Notes under the pieces: generated by a model
Told to the model about the DNA's origin: nothing
The model's database searches: none
Seen by the model: only the letters and a program-made list of their open reading frames with translations
Position numbers and translations under genes: made by a program
DNA from: a bacterium
Lineage (GTDB): Bacteria > JAMCPX01
Length of the DNA: 17,553 nucleotides
Assembly: GCA_021789095.1 (NCBI GenBank)
Contig: JAJYJX010000030.1
Location: forward strand, 1-17,553
Direction: 5' to 3'
Shown: one piece after another, positions 3,904 to 13,154 of the stretch
Layout of the letters: each line of letters opens with the position of its first letter
Position numbering within the stretch: the stretch's first letter is position 1

Positions 3904-5105
3904 GATTTATTTGTAACTATCAAATCAATAAAGTCAACACCATGTATATCCGCATCAATGGAAAACGCCTTCAGTACCGACTTGCCTATATCACAGAATC
4001 CGTGTCTTGTTCCAAGCGGGCATCCTTTCAGACCGTGCATATAAACAAGCAGCGGGATATGCTCCCTTGAATGGTCTGTACTGGGCGTTGTAGGATCACA
4101 CCCATGGTCTGCGGTTATAACAAGCATGGTTTTATCATCCATGCTTGCAAGAATATCGGCAAGCCTTGTGTCAAAGTATTCAAGTGCTTTCTTAAAACCT
4201 GAGGGATCATTGCGGTGCCCGTAGAGTGTATCGAAGTCATTTAGGTTTGTGAAAACAATGCCCCTGCCGGACTTTGCACGGAGCAGTTCGTAAGCCTTTA
4301 ATGTTTCTCTTATGCCTTCTTCGTTGGAGCCTGTATGCACGGCATTCGTCAGTCCTCTTCCTGCAAAGATATCGTTAATCTTGCCTATGCCGATGACTTC
4401 ATAGTCCTGGTTTTTGAGTATATCCAAGACCGTGGTGCCGGGCGGAGGTACGGAAAAATCCTTCCGCCTTTCTGTTCTTTTGAATGCACCCGGTTTACCG
4501 GTAAACGGTCTTGCTATAACCCTTCCTACATTATATGGATTTAATATCTCTCGGGCTGTTTCACACCACCTATATAGTTCGGGAACAGGTACAATATCTT
4601 CATGCGCAGCTATCTGAAATACGCTGTCCGCAGATGTATAGACAATGGGCATGCCGGCTTGCACATGCTGACGGCCGAGTTCCTCTATGATCACCGTACC
4701 GGACGCAGGCTTGTTGCCCAGTATTTTCCTGCCTATGCGGGATTCGAACGCTGTTATTATCTCATCCGGAAAACCGTGCGGGAAAACAGCGAACGGTTTG
4801 TCAGTGACCAGCCCCATAATCTCCCAGTGGCCTGTCGTTGTATCCTTGCCCTTTGACAGTTCCGCTGCTTTCCCATAACAGCCTGAAGGATTGTCTTGCG
4901 GCTGCCTGCAGGGAAAAGGCACTATATTCGCAAGACCCAGCTTGTACATATTGGGCAGATCGAGTCCCTCGGTTGCCCTTGCTGTATTTACAAGCGTGTT
5001 GCTGCCTGCATCGCCGTAGGCTGCTGCATCCGGCAGTTCGCCTATACCTACACCGTCCAGAACCAGTAATAGTATCCTTGTTACAGGTATTTTAATTGTT
5101 TGCAT
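3900..5105 (-). CDS. deoB: Phosphopentomutase
   Basis: The enzyme interconverts ribose or deoxyribose 1-phosphate and 5-phosphate, linking nucleoside breakdown with pentose phosphates. It belongs to the alkaline phosphatase superfamily of metal-dependent mutases. Visible landmarks are the N-terminal metal ligand in 'LLLVLDGVGIGELPDA' (Asp17 from this start), the 'DTTTGHWE' active-site block near residue 90, and the C-terminal metal cluster 'ITADHGCDPTTPSTDHSREH' near 330-350. The start is uncertain. The ATG at 5105 gives 401 residues and begins just before the first beta strand; ATG at 5120 adds five residues and a TTG at 5153 adds sixteen. None has a convincing Shine-Dalgarno. It heads the minus-strand operon and overlaps ribF by ATGA. 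It lies back to back with the lipoprotein gene, separated by only about 50-66 AT-rich bp. Confidence 0.94.
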   Translation of the reverse strand: MQTIKIPVTRILLLVLDGVGIGELPDAAAYGDAGSNTLVNTARATEGLDLPNMYKLGLANIVPFPCRQPQDNPSGCYGKAAELSKGKDTTTGHWEIMGLVTDKPFAVFPHGFPDEIITAFESRIGRKILGNKPASGTVIIEELGRQHVQAGMPIVYTSADSVFQIAAHEDIVPVPELYRWCETAREILNPYNVGRVIARPFTGKPGAFKRTERRKDFSVPPPGTTVLDILKNQDYEVIGIGKINDIFAGRGLTNAVHTGSNEEGIRETLKAYELLRAKSGRGIVFTNLNDFDTLYGHRNDPSGFKKALEYFDTRLADILASMDDKTMLVITADHGCDPTTPSTDHSREHIPLLVYMHGLKGCPLGTRHGFCDIGKSVLKAFSIDADIHGVDFIDLIVTNKS

Positions 5106-5171: not shown

Positions 5172-7088
5172 ATGAAGATTGAACGATCGGTTCCTGTATG
5201 TCTCATGTTTATATCCCTATTTCTATTACCTGTGATGTTATTTTCGGGATGTACTGAAAACAAAACAACTACTTCCGTGCCGGGTTACTTTATTCAGCTT
5301 ACTGCAAACCAGTATTCCATTCCTGCTGATGGCACATCCACAGCAGGGATAACGGCAAATATTAAAACACTGAGTGGAACGTCTGTTACCGACGGCACAT
5401 CGGTACACTTTGTCACAACAAACGGAGTCTTTATGATATCCGGAAACTCGGCGGGACAGTCTGTGTCTGTTGGAACTTCGGGCGGACAGGCTTCTATAAA
5501 CCTGCAGAGCGCAACAACACCCGAGCAGGCAGCAGTAACAGCGAGTGCGGGTGGACTAAATGGTGCTCCAATCTTTGTTCAATTTACATCCCAGTCTACA
5601 GGCGGTGGAACCGGAACCGGGACTGGCACGGGCACGGGAACAGGTGGTGGTACGGGTGGCGGAACAACAGGTACTACCTTTGCAGCATCCAACCTGACTG
5701 CTACTGCAACAGAGTTAAGGGTGTGGCCATTTAATCCTTATATAACAACATTGATATTAACGGCAAGTAATGCGGCAGGCAGCCCGGTTTCCAACGGAAC
5801 AATAGCGACTTTTACGATAAACAATAACCCTGGCGGATGTCAGTTCGTAGCCAGTAACGGAAGCGTCCTTGGCACATCATTTACAACAGCGATTAGCAGT
5901 GGTACGGTATCGACCATATTCAGCAGCGGTACACACTCAGGTGTAGCTCTTGTAACCGCTGCTTATCTAATAAGTGGGCAGACGTTTACAAATTCTGTAT
6001 GGATTGTAGTGGATAGCGGTCCTGTGGCAGGTGCCATTCATTTTGGCATCGATGTTAAAACCGGTGAAACAAATGTACCAGGTCTTATTATAGGCGGACT
6101 AACATCACATATAACCGTTTTCCTCACAGACAGGTATTCGAATCCAGTGCCTGACGGCACACCTGTTTATTTTTCCTCAAGGGGTGGAGTAATAGACCCT
6201 ATTGTATATACTACAAATGGACAGGCAACTACTACACTTTATTCCTCCGTTTTGCCACAGGTAGAGCTTATTTCAGAGCCTATGGATATTGCACTCAGAA
6301 TACCTTTTGTAAATGTATTTAATACTCCGCTAAACGGGGTGAACGAGGTTATAGCATATACTTACGGGGAAGAGTGGTTTAATGACGTAAACCAAAATGG
6401 CACACATGATCCAGGCGAACCAGTTATACATCAGGGAGACCCCTATATTGATGCGAATTTGAATGGCAAGCATGATACTGACACAACTACTCTCTGGTAT
6501 CATACAAGCAACGGTACAGCCTGTGCTCCGAGCTTTACATTAGGGGAATGCTTTACAGATACAATAACCAATGCCTATCCTTTCCCAGCCGATGCTTCGT
6601 CAAAAGTAGGACCGGAATGGTACTGGCCAAGTTCGACCGGCGCTCCATACAATCCGCCTTTGTCCGACCCTAACAACTTATACTTCTTTACCCATACTAC
6701 AGTATGGAACATAGCATATGTCGTTTATTCCGGTTATCCGGTAATAACATATACAGCAACAACTATGACAGGAAGTACATTCACGGGTACTATGCAAACA
6801 GGAACAACTGTCAACTATGAAGTATATTTTGGCGACGAAAACGGGAATACATTGGCACCTGGAAGCAGTATTTCTGCTTCATTCCAGGGAGGGGTACAGG
6901 GAAGCGTATTCCCGCAATCCTATGATGCAGGTTCGAAAAATATCGGACAATTCATAGTTAGCGCACCAACACAACCTTTACCGAACGGGCTGCCTCAAAG
7001 CGGCTTTTTTGAATTAAAACTAACATCGCCAAACATTGCTAATGGCAGTACGATGAAAGCGGAAATACCGATTACAATTACGCCTTAA
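5172..7088 (+). CDS. Exported lipoprotein with Ig-like (Big-1 type) domains and calcium-loop segment
   Basis: The 638-residue protein starts at an ATG behind AAGGAGG. It opens with a basic-then-hydrophobic signal sequence ending 'VMLFSGC', giving a probable lipid-modified Cys27. Residues about 38-140 ('LTANQYSIPADGTSTAGITA...DGTSVHFVTTNGVF') are a typical Big-1/invasin-like Ig domain. A low-complexity Gly/Thr linker follows (about 143-168), then further Ig-like repeats: 'LTATATELRVWPFNPYITTLILTA' from about 172, and 'ITVFLTDRYSNPVPDGTPVYFSSRGGVI' in the 310s-330s. Residues 405-437 hold two Asp/Asn/Gly-rich loops, 'DVNQNGTHDPGE' and 'DANLNGKHD', which look like EF-hand-type calcium sites. It is likely anchored in the outer membrane and surface-exposed or periplasmic, with a structural or adhesive role. 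No enzyme motif is seen. It is transcribed away from deoB and stands alone. Confidence 0.8.
   Translation: MKIERSVPVCLMFISLFLLPVMLFSGCTENKTTTSVPGYFIQLTANQYSIPADGTSTAGITANIKTLSGTSVTDGTSVHFVTTNGVFMISGNSAGQSVSVGTSGGQASINLQSATTPEQAAVTASAGGLNGAPIFVQFTSQSTGGGTGTGTGTGTGTGGGTGGGTTGTTFAASNLTATATELRVWPFNPYITTLILTASNAAGSPVSNGTIATFTINNNPGGCQFVASNGSVLGTSFTTAISSGTVSTIFSSGTHSGVALVTAAYLISGQTFTNSVWIVVDSGPVAGAIHFGIDVKTGETNVPGLIIGGLTSHITVFLTDRYSNPVPDGTPVYFSSRGGVIDPIVYTTNGQATTTLYSSVLPQVELISEPMDIALRIPFVNVFNTPLNGVNEVIAYTYGEEWFNDVNQNGTHDPGEPVIHQGDPYIDANLNGKHDTDTTTLWYHTSNGTACAPSFTLGECFTDTITNAYPFPADASSKVGPEWYWPSSTGAPYNPPLSDPNNLYFFTHTTVWNIAYVVYSGYPVITYTATTMTGSTFTGTMQTGTTVNYEVYFGDENGNTLAPGSSISASFQGGVQGSVFPQSYDAGSKNIGQFIVSAPTQPLPNGLPQSGFFELKLTSPNIANGSTMKAEIPITITP
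5600..5675 (+). repeat. Low-complexity Gly/Thr-coding repeat
   Basis: The DNA is a run of near-repeats of GGNACN and GGYGGN codons that encode alternating Gly-Thr and Gly-Gly-Thr. It forms the flexible linker between the first and second Ig-like domains of the lipoprotein. Such tracts change length easily by slippage. Confidence 0.8.
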
Positions 7089-7118: not shown

Positions 7119-7146
7119 GTAGGGGCACGTTGCAACGTGCCCCTAC
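7119..7146. repeat. Perfect 28-bp palindrome (REP-like element)
   Basis: Fourteen bases, GTAGGGGCACGTTG, are followed directly by their exact reverse complement with no spacer. It starts 31 bp after the lipoprotein stop. Without a following T-run it is not a classical intrinsic terminator, though a transcript would fold strongly. The GTAGGGGCACG...CGTGCCCCTAC form is like short palindromic elements dispersed in many bacterial genomes (from memory; copy number cannot be checked in this window). Confidence 0.85.
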
Positions 7147-7448: not shown

Positions 7449-8207
7449 TCAAGGTCTGAGAATATTCGATGCGCCTTTATACTCTTCCTTACCTGTAGGT
7501 TGAAATGATTGATAAATACTAAACCCAACTAATTTATCATTCTTGAATTGAATTCGTATACGAGATAATACATTAACAAATGGGTATTTTATCAGTTCTG
7601 CAATTGGATATGAGCGAGTAAAGCGTAATATCAGTTTATCATTTATTTTCTCATCTGCGAAGTAATTATATGTCATTATATTGTTATCCCAATAGCTTGG
7701 CTTGCCCCATTTTTTATACAATTGTTCTTGAGTAATACCAAAGGTGAGATCTCCTATACGGACAACATTGGGTATTTTATCATTTACAACACAATGATTT
7801 CCTAAAAAATCCGTTTTTAATGCTCCAGGAACATAAGATAGTAATTCAGCAAGCGAATCATATTGTGAAACATTTATTGTTTCTACTGTCTTATCCCAGC
7901 TATCTCCTTCAAAAACGACCGCAATTGGATTATTACCCGCTTTTGATTTGTAACAGAAATAAGTGTGCTTACAGCATTCGATTTGTTGTTCAAATTTATT
8001 AGTATAACCGAATATTTTACTTAACTCTTGAAAAGAAGAATACCCAATGTTGACCCCTAATATTGTGGTATATTCTGGTTTTAATTTACCAAACCAGTTT
8101 GGATGTTCTTGATGATTTGGCACGCACTTAATAAATAATATTACAATTATTACAGCAAGCCCTATCTTTTTAAGATAAATTAATATGATATTAATAAATC
8201 TAACCAT
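7449..8207 (-). CDS. Membrane-anchored exported protein with two BamE-like halves; candidate immunity protein
   Basis: I do not recognise a named family. The 252-residue protein has a hydrophobic N-terminus (about 4-27, 'IGLAVIIVILFIKC'). Cys28 might be lipidated, but Lys at the -1 position makes the lipobox poor, so an uncleaved anchor is equally possible. The rest is soluble. Two stretches look alike: 'TILGVNIGYSSFQELSKIFG' (about 48-67) and 'VRIGDLTFGITQEQLYKKWGKP' (about 148-169). Both follow the 'iGmtkeqv...lGkP' pattern of BamE/SmpA-like folds, suggesting an internal duplication. The motif 'CCKHTYFC' suggests disulfides outside the cytoplasm. The ATG at 8207 follows GGTGAG. It lies 147 bp downstream of, and on the same strand as, the Rhs toxin gene, the usual place for an immunity gene. 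Its exported location fits a peptidoglycan-directed toxin. The gene is clearly more AT-rich than the core genes nearby, pointing to horizontal origin. Confidence 0.6.
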   Translation of the reverse strand: MVRFINIILIYLKKIGLAVIIVILFIKCVPNHQEHPNWFGKLKPEYTTILGVNIGYSSFQELSKIFGYTNKFEQQIECCKHTYFCYKSKAGNNPIAVVFEGDSWDKTVETINVSQYDSLAELLSYVPGALKTDFLGNHCVVNDKIPNVVRIGDLTFGITQEQLYKKWGKPSYWDNNIMTYNYFADEKINDKLILRFTRSYPIAELIKYPFVNVLSRIRIQFKNDKLVGFSIYQSFQPTGKEEYKGASNILRP

Positions 8208-8354
8208 ATCTCACCATAAATGCTTATATCGTTAATATTATATATTCATTTGTGTTTTTAATTTTTGTATATCTTTCCCACTGTATACGGAACCATATCA
8301 AAACCGCCAGATACACTATAAATAGTATAGATAAATAATTTGTCTTTAAAAATT

Positions 8355-11300
8355 TTACGGACCTACATAAATTGGTTCTCCCGGTGGTATAGTGCTTCTA
8401 ATAGGTGCGGGGAGTATTATACAACCTTCTGACCCATGAGGGCCAGGGCCATGAATCCAAAAACTGTAAGGATCTCGATTCGTATCAAAAACAGGAGCAC
8501 CAGGTACAGGGGAAAGAGGTATAGAATAAGGACCCATGCGAGGTCTATCTATTGGGATACCGGTTTCCCATGGACCTTGTGGAATTGGACCAGTATTAGG
8601 CACACCTTGCATAGAAGGATTATTTAAGCCTCTTCCTTGCCCTGAATATCCTTGATTACATTCTGTATACGGTACAAATCCTCCGTAATTTGGCCAACAA
8701 ATAATTGACCCTCTGCTTTGGCTGTATATACAATATAATCCAGTAGGGTCAGTGTTATTTGTCGGGTTATTTAAGGCATATATATATGACACTTGTAGAC
8801 CAGGTTGCTGCAGTAAATCCATATAGGGTTTATTAGTGAGGTGCAGATTAATCGGTTCATCATATGATGGAATGTGTCCAGACATGTATGCCTCTTGAAT
8901 GCGATACTTTATTAAGGTCATTAAATTAATATATGAACTTGCAACATTGAACGGATCAGGCTCTATGTACCTTCCAATCGCAGGGTAGTAATACCTGTTC
9001 ATGTTGTAATAGAAACCTGTTTCAGCATCAGCGTACATGCCGGGGAATCTTAAATTGTTGGTAACTGTCGATACAGAGACGGTTGCCTGTCCGAACGGAT
9101 CGTAGCTTGCCTGCCAGACGATGTTCTGGCTTGCATCAGTCATCATTATCGGAGTTCCGAGATGGTCGAGGTGGTAGTAATACACCTGTTCGCCAGACAC
9201 CTGTGCTTGGGTTTGCCTGCTTATCATGACTACAAGTATTATCATACTGCCAATGGCTAGTAAACTGATCAAATCAAACCTCCCCCTCCTCGCTCTGCGC
9301 AGCGCTATGATAACTGCAATACTCATGAGCGGTAAGAGATAAATAAGCCGGTCAAAGATGTCTTCTGCGGTAAGGAAGCTATTCCTATCGCCTGATGTAA
9401 TAAACGTAGAGCCGCACCCCTGGTAGACTGGTGCTGGAGGAGGCGGCGGGATTACCTCTGCAAGCGGCTTATTGCCAAGGTATACGTATTCCGCATTCAT
9501 ACTGCCGCTGCTGCCGTCATATTCACCGATGAGGTTGTTGTAGATGTCGTAGAGGTAAATGGTTGTCTTTCCAAGCGCGGTTTTTATGATCCTTCTGTTC
9601 ATACCGTCATAGATGTACTGACCAATTGCTGTGTTATTTGCATCCAGCACGTTTGTGAGCCTTCCCATGCTGTCATATTGAAACTGCTCTCCTGATACCG
9701 TCTCTTCTGTTATGTACCCTGCTGCGTCGTAGAGATATGTCGGGTCTGAAGGGTTTAATCCTTTTAGATGGTCAATGACATCTTCCATAGCCTCAAATAA
9801 CCGCTTACCAAGCTTTATATCTGTCTTATCCAAAACAGCATCTATACCGCGCTGGTTGATCCTTTGTAAGATGGCACTGATGTCTGATTTTACATCGTCT
9901 GACTGTATCACAACACCGACAAATACCTGCATATCAATATTCATCTGTTTGGCTGTGTTTGCCATTGTCCATAAAAGGCTGTCGTAGGTGTAGCAGGTCT
10001 TGTTGTCGTCTTTGTCTGAATCGTTGTGAGATTGCTTCGGGACTTCGTCCCTCGCAATGACAGAGGATTCATCGTCTGTATCTTTGGTTACTTTAAAACA
10101 ACGCCTGTCTATACCATTCTCTATAAGATGTTCCCAGTTTTCTATAAGTCTCCTGTATTGTCTCTTTACACTATTTTCATTTGTACCTTTGATAGGATCG
10201 TTGTAGCTCCATAGCCTGTTTGTGCCCGGATAATACAAGTAATTTATCGTTTTTGTAGAGGTAACTTGTGTAAGCCGGTTACCTACGAGATCATAGGAGT
10301 ACTCTATATTCCCATAATCACCTGTTGTGTCCGTTACCCTGTTGAATGCATCATAGTTGTATATGTACGAGGTTGGTGTTGTGGTGATTGTAAGGACATT
10401 CCCAGCATTGTCATATTTGTATGCCCGATTAAGGATATTACCTACTTGTATATCCGTTGCCTCACCTGCAGCGTCTGTTGTTATTGTAAGCGGCAGTCCA
10501 TTGCCATAACTGAGCCCTGCAAGGTCTGCAAACGGCTGATAGGTAATATTGCTCGCTATGGTTGTATTGACACCGTTTACTATTTCATCCACTTCAGAGG
10601 GCTTATTCGGGTCTGAGGTATATTTATAATTCACAACTCTACCTGAAGGATATGTGATGGAGGATAGGTTGCCGTCATTATCATACGTATAGCTTATAAC
10701 GAACGTGTGCCCTGATATTGACCTTGTCTCTGCAATAACATTACCGCGTGCATCATAACTGTACGCTGTATTACCCGAGCTGTCCTGCATGCCTGTAAGC
10801 CTGCTAATGCCATTCGCTACAGATATATTAAGAGGATTCTTCCCATCGTAGTAATAGGTCACAAACGAAACTGAAGAAAATCCAGAGCCTTGATTAGGAC
10901 TAATACTGGTAAGCCTGTTAAGACCGTCTTTATAGGCATAATTAAGTTCCCTGCTGTCAGCATCCATCTTGCCTATGAGACTGCCAGCAGGGGAATTATA
11001 CCGGTAATTCGTATCCCCTGTATCGTGTGAACTGGTCATTACAAGATTGCTCATGTCATCGTATTCGTAATGTGAAGTGTTCCCGTTAGCATCAGTCGCT
11101 GTTATAAGATCCCCATGCACGTTATATTTATATGATGTGAGTGCATTGGCCTGTGATCCGTATTGTGTTACCTGACCGAGTTTGTTCAATTCATTATACC
11201 GGTAATTTATATAATGGCCATTAGGGTCTGTCTCACCGGCTATATTGCCGTTACCGTCATATCCAATATATGTTGCGGACGAATTGCCATTTATAATCTC

Positions 11301-11771
11301 TGAAAGAGTACTATACTGGTCGTACACATAATTCTTAAATCTTACAAGGTTGTTTTGAGCATCGTATACATTCTCAGATGTCTTATTCCCGTGGCCGTAT
11401 GCGCACGTATATACAATTGAGCCAACAACCTGCCCGGAAGCATTATACCTGGTTATACTCGTGATATGATCTCCTGCATCATAGATATATAAAATGTATG
11501 CACCAGAAGGATAGATAACCCGGGATAGATTGCCTTTTATATCATAAGAAAAACTTGTTGTAAGGTCTGCGCCGCTTGATGAAGCGCCTTTTTGCGTTAT
11601 AGAGGTTATCTGACCCCGCCAGTTGTATGTTATATTGCTTATATTACCATTAGGATCCGTCATTGTTCCTGCATGACCCATGTTGTCATAATTGCTGTAA
11701 TAGGTTGTATAATTATTATTGTTGTTTACGCACGTTATATTTCCCATAGTATATAGGAATCCCATTGGCAT
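8355..11771 (-). CDS. Rhs/YD-repeat polymorphic toxin, main segment, with Tlde1/DUF2778-like C-terminal toxin
   Basis: The 1138-residue frame is full of YD repeats ('YDxxGNxxxxxxPNG' type) from the start to about residue 530 and again at 675-770. An inserted region (about 530-675) contains a repeat-encoded peptide and a helical stretch. A Pro-rich segment and two hydrophobic helices (about 807-823 and 830-850) interrupt the shell before 'YYYHLDHLGTPI', the start of the Rhs-associated core. The core runs through 'YDPFGQA', 'NLRFPGMYADAETGFYYNMN' and 'RYIEPDP' to 'NPTNNTDPTGL' (ending at 1012), the usual autoproteolysis motif. The 126-residue tip is treated separately. The first ATG has no Shine-Dalgarno and in-frame stops lie immediately upstream (11772-11777). 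This, with the upstream YD-repeat frame ending at 11716, indicates a frameshift rather than an independent gene. Presumed role: contact or secreted toxin delivery. Confidence 0.85.
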   Translation of the reverse strand: MPMGFLYTMGNITCVNNNNNYTTYYSNYDNMGHAGTMTDPNGNISNITYNWRGQITSITQKGASSSGADLTTSFSYDIKGNLSRVIYPSGAYILYIYDAGDHITSITRYNASGQVVGSIVYTCAYGHGNKTSENVYDAQNNLVRFKNYVYDQYSTLSEIINGNSSATYIGYDGNGNIAGETDPNGHYINYRYNELNKLGQVTQYGSQANALTSYKYNVHGDLITATDANGNTSHYEYDDMSNLVMTSSHDTGDTNYRYNSPAGSLIGKMDADSRELNYAYKDGLNRLTSISPNQGSGFSSVSFVTYYYDGKNPLNISVANGISRLTGMQDSSGNTAYSYDARGNVIAETRSISGHTFVISYTYDNDGNLSSITYPSGRVVNYKYTSDPNKPSEVDEIVNGVNTTIASNITYQPFADLAGLSYGNGLPLTITTDAAGEATDIQVGNILNRAYKYDNAGNVLTITTTPTSYIYNYDAFNRVTDTTGDYGNIEYSYDLVGNRLTQVTSTKTINYLYYPGTNRLWSYNDPIKGTNENSVKRQYRRLIENWEHLIENGIDRRCFKVTKDTDDESSVIARDEVPKQSHNDSDKDDNKTCYTYDSLLWTMANTAKQMNIDMQVFVGVVIQSDDVKSDISAILQRINQRGIDAVLDKTDIKLGKRLFEAMEDVIDHLKGLNPSDPTYLYDAAGYITEETVSGEQFQYDSMGRLTNVLDANNTAIGQYIYDGMNRRIIKTALGKTTIYLYDIYNNLIGEYDGSSGSMNAEYVYLGNKPLAEVIPPPPPAPVYQGCGSTFITSGDRNSFLTAEDIFDRLIYLLPLMSIAVIIALRRARRGRFDLISLLAIGSMIILVVMISRQTQAQVSGEQVYYYHLDHLGTPIMMTDASQNIVWQASYDPFGQATVSVSTVTNNLRFPGMYADAETGFYYNMNRYYYPAIGRYIEPDPFNVASSYINLMTLIKYRIQEAYMSGHIPSYDEPINLHLTNKPYMDLLQQPGLQVSYIYALNNPTNNTDPTGLYCIYSQSRGSIICWPNYGGFVPYTECNQGYSGQGRGLNNPSMQGVPNTGPIPQGPWETGIPIDRPRMGPYSIPLSPVPGAPVFDTNRDPYSFWIHGPGPHGSEGCIILPAPIRSTIPPGEPIYVGP
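8358..8735 (-). other. Toxin tip domain: Tlde1/DUF2778-like L,D-transpeptidase fold
   Basis: Residues 1013-1138 of the main Rhs segment follow DPTGL directly. They contain 'GYSGQGRGLNNPSMQ', 'NTGPIPQGPW' and 'SFWIHGPGPHGSEGCIILP'. His1107 and Cys1117 sit in the HG...SxGC arrangement of the YkuD-like Tlde1 (DUF2778) toxins. Known members act in the periplasm on peptidoglycan tetrapeptide stems as carboxypeptidases and D-amino-acid exchangers. Both catalytic residues are present, so the domain itself looks intact. Assignment is by motif recognition only. Confidence 0.72.
10025..10062 (-). repeat. Dispersed short palindromic repeat inserted in frame in the Rhs gene
   Basis: Arms ATTGC (10031-10035) and GCAAT (10054-10058) enclose a second perfect stem GGGAC/GTCCC (10039-10043 and 10047-10051) with loop TTC. 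Read on the minus strand it begins TGTCATTGCGAGGGACGAAG, a form I recognise as a widespread intergenic repeat in many bacterial genomes. Here it is translated as 'VIARDEVPKQSHN' with no stop, so it sits in frame within a coding sequence. Confidence 0.7.
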
Positions 11772-13014
11772 TCACTACACGTGTCAAATTGCCTAAATTG
11801 TCATAGCTGTACGAAATCTCATATCCAGAATATATTGGACGTACCATGCCTGTTGGGGTCTTAAATTTATAGTCATAGGTAAATCCTGTCTGGGTTATGC
11901 TTAATAGCTCATTCGAGCTGTTATAATTGTAATATGTTATTTTGTGTGGCCCACCAACTATACTTGTTGTTGTTATAGTAGTTGGTTGATGGAGTTGGGC
12001 ATTCCATGTGTATTCTGTAGTTGAGCTGTAAGGAGTACCATAAATTGAACTCGTTGGACTACCACAAGCAGTAGTCATATATTGATAATCACCATTTCTA
12101 TCATAGCCGCTCCACGTTGTAAGGTTCTCATTAAAATCCGTCTGTGAAATTTTGTTGCCGAGTGAATCATACCCTGTCCACTGAATTCCCTGCTCTCCAG
12201 GCCATAAGACTCCATTATAATTACTGCACGCCTCGCAAGGCCGCAAAGGACCTACCTGTTCTACTACCGGATGACTGCCATTACCAAGACTGTTTTTTAA
12301 CCAATAATACACTGGTTCTCCGCTCATATAAGGAGCATAATCTACAAATGTAACATTACATACCTGGCCGTTTATAATAGTTGTAGGTCCTACAAGCAAT
12401 GTGTTAAATGTACCAAATCCACCAGGAGCGTAATATGTAGCTAACGTACCCGGAATGCAGTTTAAATATTGTATCCCGCCTGCATAACAATTCTCATCAA
12501 GGTATAAATAGCTTGCCGTGTTGCCATATTCATCTACAATGGAAGTGAGTTTGCCGGTACTGTCATAACTCAATTGTTTGGTTGATAAATCGGGATAAAT
12601 TATCTGTGTCAGATGATTGGTTGAGTCATAGTTAAGTTGATATACATTGCCATTGGGATCCGTTATAGTATTTATAAGCTTGCTTGTGGTATCTGCATAT
12701 CCATACTTGATTGTCCTTCCCCCACTATCGCTTACACTTATCAATCTTCCATTCGCATCATAGTTGTAATACTTCGCTGCACCGGTACCGTCTGTTTGTG
12801 CTGTGATGTACCCTCCGTATATTGCTGGCATATAAAACCAAGAAGTAATTCCCTTTGTGTCAGTGTATGTCAGACCCTGATTATAAATGTATATTTGACC
12901 ACTATCCCCTAAAAATTCTGCACCACTGCTGCCATGAGCTATAGACCAATAATCTCCATTTACGTGTATCCCTTTTACGATTCCTCCCTTGTAAAAAACA
13001 GTCAGATAGACCAT
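11716..13014 (-). CDS. Rhs/YD-repeat protein, N-terminal segment (frameshifted from the main segment)
   Basis: The 432-residue frame begins with non-repeat sequence and then shows YD repeats: 'YYNYDANGRLISVSDSGG', 'YGYADTTSKLINTITDPNG', 'YDSTGKLTSIVDEYGN', 'YDSLGNKISQTDFNEN', 'YSYDNLGNLTRVVNANG'. A repeat-poor module with several Cys (about 175-290) lies in between. It ends in 'YYGKYNVRKQQ' after leaving the repeat pattern, while the next frame picks the pattern up with 'YTMGNITCV'. That places a one-base shift near 11745-11755. The ATG at 13014 has no Shine-Dalgarno. The frame is open back to about 13100, where it overlaps the signal-peptide stub, so the real start is probably the stub ATG with a second frame disruption in between. 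Confidence 0.75.
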   Translation of the reverse strand: MVYLTVFYKGGIVKGIHVNGDYWSIAHGSSGAEFLGDSGQIYIYNQGLTYTDTKGITSWFYMPAIYGGYITAQTDGTGAAKYYNYDANGRLISVSDSGGRTIKYGYADTTSKLINTITDPNGNVYQLNYDSTNHLTQIIYPDLSTKQLSYDSTGKLTSIVDEYGNTASYLYLDENCYAGGIQYLNCIPGTLATYYAPGGFGTFNTLLVGPTTIINGQVCNVTFVDYAPYMSGEPVYYWLKNSLGNGSHPVVEQVGPLRPCEACSNYNGVLWPGEQGIQWTGYDSLGNKISQTDFNENLTTWSGYDRNGDYQYMTTACGSPTSSIYGTPYSSTTEYTWNAQLHQPTTITTTSIVGGPHKITYYNYNSSNELLSITQTGFTYDYKFKTPTGMVRPIYSGYEISYSYDNLGNLTRVVNANGIPIYYGKYNVRKQQ

Positions 13015-13049: not shown

Positions 13050-13154
13050 TTACCAGAAATAAATAGTCATACTGGCATTTGCAATGTTACTATAGTTCAA
13101 AGCGGCTAAACCTGTTATCAATGTTCCAATTAACAGAAAAATTTTATGCTTCAT
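13050..13154 (-). CDS. Signal-peptide stub, probable original N-terminus of the Rhs protein
   Basis: A 34-codon frame begins with ATG at 13152-13154 behind a clear AAAGGAG site seven bases upstream. It encodes 'MKHKIFLLIGTLITGLAA' and continues to 'NIANAS', a textbook Sec signal peptide with an A-N-A cleavage site at 25-27. It stops at TAA (13050-13052) after only seven more residues. The YD-repeat frame lies immediately downstream in another phase, without its own ribosome site. The simplest reading is that this is the export signal of the Rhs toxin, separated from it by an indel. A real micropeptide is possible but less likely. Confidence 0.6.
   Translation of the reverse strand: MKHKIFLLIGTLITGLAALNYSNIANASMTIYFW

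Follow-up and report, generated by a model that had tools for sequence, protein, structure and literature searches.

The target of Tlde1a, an L,D-carboxypeptidase/transpeptidase, is D-Ala4 of the peptidoglycan stems (PMC9638812). Tlde1 works in the periplasm, where peptidoglycan is its substrate, and it is paired with Tldi1a, an immunity protein that bears a Sec signal (PMC9638812). In 2025, immunity proteins that evolve rapidly and combine a membrane anchor with a BamE-like domain were described for Lipocone and related polymorphic toxins (PMC12419801). BLIP, which consists of a domain related to BamE/SmpA-OmlA in tandem, inhibits an enzyme outside the cytoplasm (PMC2954215). Here, we describe a locus in which a gene for a putatively anchored, BamE-like protein follows the Tlde1 tip of an RHS protein, and we believe that this gene probably encodes the immunity protein of that tip. 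The initial annotation knew of no immunity family with this layout, which was wrong in kind as membrane-anchored BamE-like immunity proteins have been described (PMC12419801). What would be new in relation to these is the Tlde1 target and, if it is real, the two-domain form. The locus lies in a window of 17,553 nucleotides, the whole stretch of DNA that was analysed, and comprises the following features:

7449-8207, minus strand: candidate immunity gene, 252 aa, ATG start; predicted membrane anchor, then two putative domains of ~95-100 aa (hydrophobic segment; secondary-structure order of the AlphaFold model)
8127-8189, minus strand: predicted membrane anchor, residues ~7-27 (Kyte-Doolittle 2.64 for 19 residues; modelled helix 2-28)
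7803-8087, minus strand: half 1, residues 41-135; possible divergent BamE/BLIP-like domain (BamE profile, hhalign)
7488-7790, minus strand: half 2, residues 140-240; likely BamE/BLIP-like domain (BamE profile, hhalign, low-confidence model)
8208-8354, minus strand: 147-nt gap from toxin stop to candidate start, in which no terminator was found
8355-8738, minus strand: toxin tip of the RHS protein, a Tlde1 (L,D-transpeptidase-fold) domain with the stop codon (identity to tlde1, PHROG 24118)
8355-11771, minus strand: RHS protein, core and tip, ORF of 1138 aa; two membrane-type segments at residues 805-850
11716-13014, minus strand: ORF of 432 aa with RHS repeats, upstream of 8355-11771 and out of frame with it; frame-broken RHS gene

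The last 127 residues of the RHS ORF form a Tlde1 domain, in agreement with the DUF2778-type tip of the initial annotation. When the tip was compared with plasmid records by tblastn, E-values reached down to 3e-11 and many of the matches were annotated tlde1 or DUF2778; aligned with plasmid tlde1 proteins, the tip is 33-43% identical, and H96, S103, G105 and C106 are invariant. The tip is thus related to Tlde1 proteins and retains their catalytic motif, H...(S/T)xGC. It matches PHROG 24118 with an E-value of 1e-13, and its Pfam score lies below the cut-off (22.5 versus 30.1). Phages have Tlde1-fold proteins as well: these are present in 56 records of Erwinia and Dickeya phages and in an ssDNA phage of Citromicrobium with 4.4 kb (phage records MH248138, MG214764 and others).

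Several other observations were made along the locus. Two membrane-type segments stand just ahead of the RHS core domain, a YD-repeat insert in the same ORF carries SSVIARDEVPKQSHN, which resembles a peptide from an inserted repeat element, and the segment that follows it, IQSDDVKSDISAILQRINQRG..., recurs in RHS genes of the sister genomes. A 57-codon stop-to-stop frame with a membrane-like YLSILFIVYLAVLIWF and no ATG start spans the toxin stop on the minus strand (8224-8397) and may be due to chance in AT-rich DNA. A scan of the locus for promoters and terminators returned nothing better than shuffled sequence, and the window has no Rfam match. On the plus strand, the convergent gene at 5172-7088 encodes a lipoprotein-like, Thr/Gly-rich surface protein with weak matches to invasin domain 3, and downstream of it lies a perfect 28-nt palindrome, GTAGGGGCACGTTG/CAACGTGCCCCTAC (7119-7146), present as a single copy in the window.

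The candidate gene itself is an intact ORF of 252 codons at exactly 7449-8207; as had been claimed, it follows the toxin tip on the same strand, beginning 147 nt past the RHS ORF. Its AT-richness was also borne out, with ~30% GC in the ORF against ~44% in its surroundings; GC is 30-31% over 7501-8250 compared with 42-50% nearby, and no other part of the window is as AT-rich. The three codon positions have GC fractions of 0.40, 0.30 and 0.23, the pattern of a coding gene rich in AT. This bears on the state of the pair. The RHS gene is frame-broken, in that the frame opened by a signal-peptide-like start at 13154 meets a stop and the remainder is split between the ORFs 11716-13014 and 8355-11771 in different frames, and the pair of toxin and candidate may therefore be decaying. 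Taken to its end, this would make the locus an inactive relic, with a broken toxin gene and a partner retained by chance or eroding. Given that the candidate ORF is intact with coding-like codon-position GC, that the tip ORF retains its catalytic motif, and that the breaks may be assembly errors, we regard a relic as highly improbable even with an RHS gene split over at least two frames.

The claim that the protein is membrane-anchored stood as a prediction. The candidate has a single N-terminal hydrophobic segment (residues ~7-27, Kyte-Doolittle 2.64), and an AlphaFold model of the full-length protein (pLDDT 39) places a helix at residues 2-28. A classical lipoprotein was considered and rejected: the segment ends in LFIKC, with a lysine before Cys28 and no classical lipobox, so that an uncleaved membrane anchor is the more likely reading of the N-terminus. 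The candidate has no trustworthy match in Pfam, NCBIfam, PHROG, PADLOC or PDB sequences; a Pfam match to NdhS (E 0.0025-0.008) was set aside because it spans only 28 residues and falls under the cut-off. A Foldseek search with the full-length model returned only noise.

The likeness to BamE was evaluated with a profile built from 25 BamE-family domains from other lineages, and the two halves of the protein fared differently. Half 2 scored 10.7 bits, a value equalled by one of 5000 shuffles and above that of every unrelated tile among ~1310 tiles of real proteins, and in hhalign none of 200 shuffles did as well. Half 1 scored 2.6 bits (180 of 5000 shuffles as good; 11 of 200 in hhalign), its profile match starting at the same motif and register as that of half 2. 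PF04355 was matched at the Pfam cut-off neither by the full candidate nor by either half, and the sole tblastn match of half 2 in plasmids, an annotated bamE, was insignificant (E 3). Half 2 was also modelled alone, with low confidence (pLDDT 44). Foldseek placed Neisseria BamE first for this low-confidence model (E 0.05, probability 0.99) and BtiO second, while the VIA aligner placed BtiO first, followed only by BamE chains within the first 19 rows, at Z ~5 over 67-77 residues; BLIP came lower in the VIA list (Z 3.9). Z values of this size can arise from a common arrangement alone, and a good part of the BamE entries are near-copies of a single protein. Since the matches of the model and the sequence profile agree, half 2 likely has a BamE/BLIP-like fold, the hallmark of which is a helix hairpin with three or four antiparallel strands after it. 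The BamE-like reading of the initial annotation is thereby supported for half 2 by profile, hhalign and fold match, whereas for half 1 the profile and hhalign scores are only suggestive of a divergent domain of this kind.

Whether the protein is a tandem is a separate matter. The initial annotation had described two similar halves, and a short motif does recur in both (VNIGYSSFQELSKIFG / LTFGITQEQLYKKWGKP), but the pairwise likeness of the halves is at chance level, with 238 of 1000 shuffles scoring equally well. This pairwise test is low in power: a tandem BamE-like protein from another genome (L083) fails it too (466 of 2000 shuffles), so that a tandem of two BamE-like domains in the candidate, though unproven, is possible. 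The L083 protein (4154-4642) has 162 aa and no anchor, and its context contains no toxin.

Homologues of the candidate were sought widely. None was found in genome contigs and viral contigs, a search that reaches close relatives only, none in plasmids and phages by tblastn, and none among nine genomes of its phylum, the gene being absent from all eight others, near-complete ones included. In 386 genomes across the domain no homologue was accepted; two matches below E 0.01, spanning 42-55 residues, were put down to chance. When half 2 was used in a relaxed search, most matches were again due to chance; two (L064 and L069) bear the BamE motif, the former in a non-toxin context. No BamE was detected at the Pfam cut-off in the phylum. 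The candidate is therefore an orphan sequence and a single case of co-occurrence with Tlde1; to be both unique in its phylum and AT-rich is as expected of a fast-evolving accessory gene. These searches also speak to the idea that the protein is an envelope accessory factor from the BamE/SmpA-OmlA/BLIP-like superfamily that plays no part in immunity and lies next to an RHS gene by chance. Anchored and tandem BamE-like proteins do occur in non-toxin contexts (L081, 4546-4947; L083, 4154-4642). However, a housekeeping factor would not be expected to be missing from all eight other genomes of the phylum that were searched, the composition of the gene differs from its surroundings, and the layout of the locus is that of a toxin and its partner. 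We consider such a factor very unlikely.

The position of the candidate gains weight from the sister genomes. Three further members of its bacterial family have the RHS core in their genomes, with ~45-57% identity for the closer sister genes, up to residue ~1012 of the window protein, where similarity ends and the tip begins. Different tips are thus carried on a shared core. Five of these other tips were read: four have a partner gene directly after them on the same strand, and after the fifth comes a transposase-like gene. One partner is an 86-aa two-helix protein with an Imm17 match just below the cut-off (E 1e-4), and another is soluble and has 269 aa. A membrane protein with four helices stays with its tip in two genomes, at 58% identity for the partner and ~70% for the end of the RHS core with the tip. 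The tip in this last case is glycine-rich (L028, 2004-3256; L029, 1789-3838), and together with the membrane protein it likely makes up a toxin-immunity pair that acts at the membrane. Given that four of five sister tips have such a partner, the gene that follows a tip in this lineage is very probably the partner of that tip, and in the window the candidate is the first and only same-strand gene after the Tlde1 tip. The immunity role that had been proposed for the candidate is in this respect well supported by position, as sister cores with other tips carry partners of their own, one of them Imm17-like.

Tlde1 genes elsewhere give a second point of reference. We surveyed the neighbours of nine Tlde1 genes, of which seven are carried by plasmids and two come from genomes in other phyla; a scan of genome contigs with the toxin tip gave no match, and class-wide searches gave no further Tlde1 loci. 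In all nine, the next gene encodes a protein with an N-terminal export signal, as judged by eye. Among these partners, at least five types can be told apart, with no similarity detected between the types; no partner is BamE-like by score, and the best BLASTP match to the candidate has an E-value of 0.40 (n=9). Tlde1 toxins thus regularly have an exported partner, and the candidate's type is seen only once.

That single occurrence invites the suggestion that the candidate is a displaced or orphan immunity protein, whose own tip was replaced by the Tlde1 tip and beside which the true partner of Tlde1 is lost or elsewhere. Tips have been exchanged on the same RHS core in this family, no other surveyed Tlde1 has such a partner, BamE-like immunity has been reported with lipid-head-group toxins rather than Tlde1 (PMC12419801), and most surveyed partners start at or within the toxin stop, whereas the candidate is set apart by its 147-nt gap. 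Yet nothing else follows the tip on that strand, and the stretch from one gene to the other showed no trace of a further tip. On this evidence, we think displacement unlikely.

We therefore return to the candidate as the immunity protein of the Tlde1 tip, and propose the following model, which we hold to be probable. The N-terminal helix would hold the protein in the inner membrane, leaving one likely, and perhaps two, BamE/BLIP-like domains exposed to the periplasm. There, these domains would bind a Tlde1 tip that is incoming or mis-targeted, and the bound protein would block the active-site cleft before D-Ala4 could be trimmed or exchanged on peptidoglycan stems. Such capping of Tlde1 may be likened to the way in which BLIP covers the active site of beta-lactamase. 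The model builds on results for the ORF, its hydrophobic segment, its place beside the toxin gene, the Tlde1 nature of the tip and the BamE-likeness of half 2 by sequence profile. Export, binding and inhibition are steps that we infer from known cases (PMC12419801, PMC2954215). A stricter version, in which an anchored BLIP-like protein of two domains is the cognate immunity to an RHS-delivered Tlde1, inhibits it in the style of BLIP and is the first BamE/BLIP-like protein to act against a toxin of the L,D-transpeptidase fold, we put forward only tentatively. If the proposal is true, BamE/BLIP-like immunity would extend from predicted lipid-head-group toxins to a peptidoglycan toxin of the L,D-transpeptidase fold, the superfamily would gain support as a general set of inhibitors outside the cytoplasm (an idea of PMC2954215), and one more immunity type would stand opposite Tlde1, besides the at least five seemingly unrelated partner types.

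How, then, does the candidate compare with known systems? Like the Tldi-type partners, it is encoded directly downstream of Tlde1 and is presumably exported; in contrast, the partners surveyed have 112-176 aa and signal-peptide-like N-termini, are not BamE-like and give no significant alignment with the candidate. Half 2 shares with BamE/SmpA-OmlA (PF04355) the motif G-x-T-x-E-x-V/L-x4-G-x-P and, in its low-confidence model, the order of helix and strands, whereas BamE is lipid-anchored and has no second half, and the candidate, with no Pfam match, has two halves and a predicted helix anchor. BtiO, a T6SS immunity protein of Bacteroides fragilis (PDB 9uu1), is the best VIA match of half 2 (Z 5.2, 77 residues, rmsd 4.3, 13% identity, with the low-confidence model); we found no paper on BtiO or its toxin. 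BLIP (PF07467) resembles the candidate in that the half 2 model aligns with it, and PDB sequences gave no direct sequence match between the two; BLIP is secreted and targets a serine beta-lactamase, while the candidate is putatively anchored and lies beside Tlde1. Closest in kind are the immunity proteins of Lipocone and related toxins, which, as described, have a TM anchor, a BamE-like domain and an adjoining polymorphic toxin (PMC12419801). The candidate likewise combines a single predicted N-terminal anchor and a probable BamE-like domain with a neighbouring polymorphic toxin tip, and the rapid evolution and predicted periplasmic action of those proteins are what we propose for it, as compared by description. 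The difference lies in the company that they keep: the described proteins occur with Min-Wnt, CapCone and Colicin M-like toxins, whereas the candidate, perhaps with two domains, stands beside a Tlde1 peptidoglycan enzyme.
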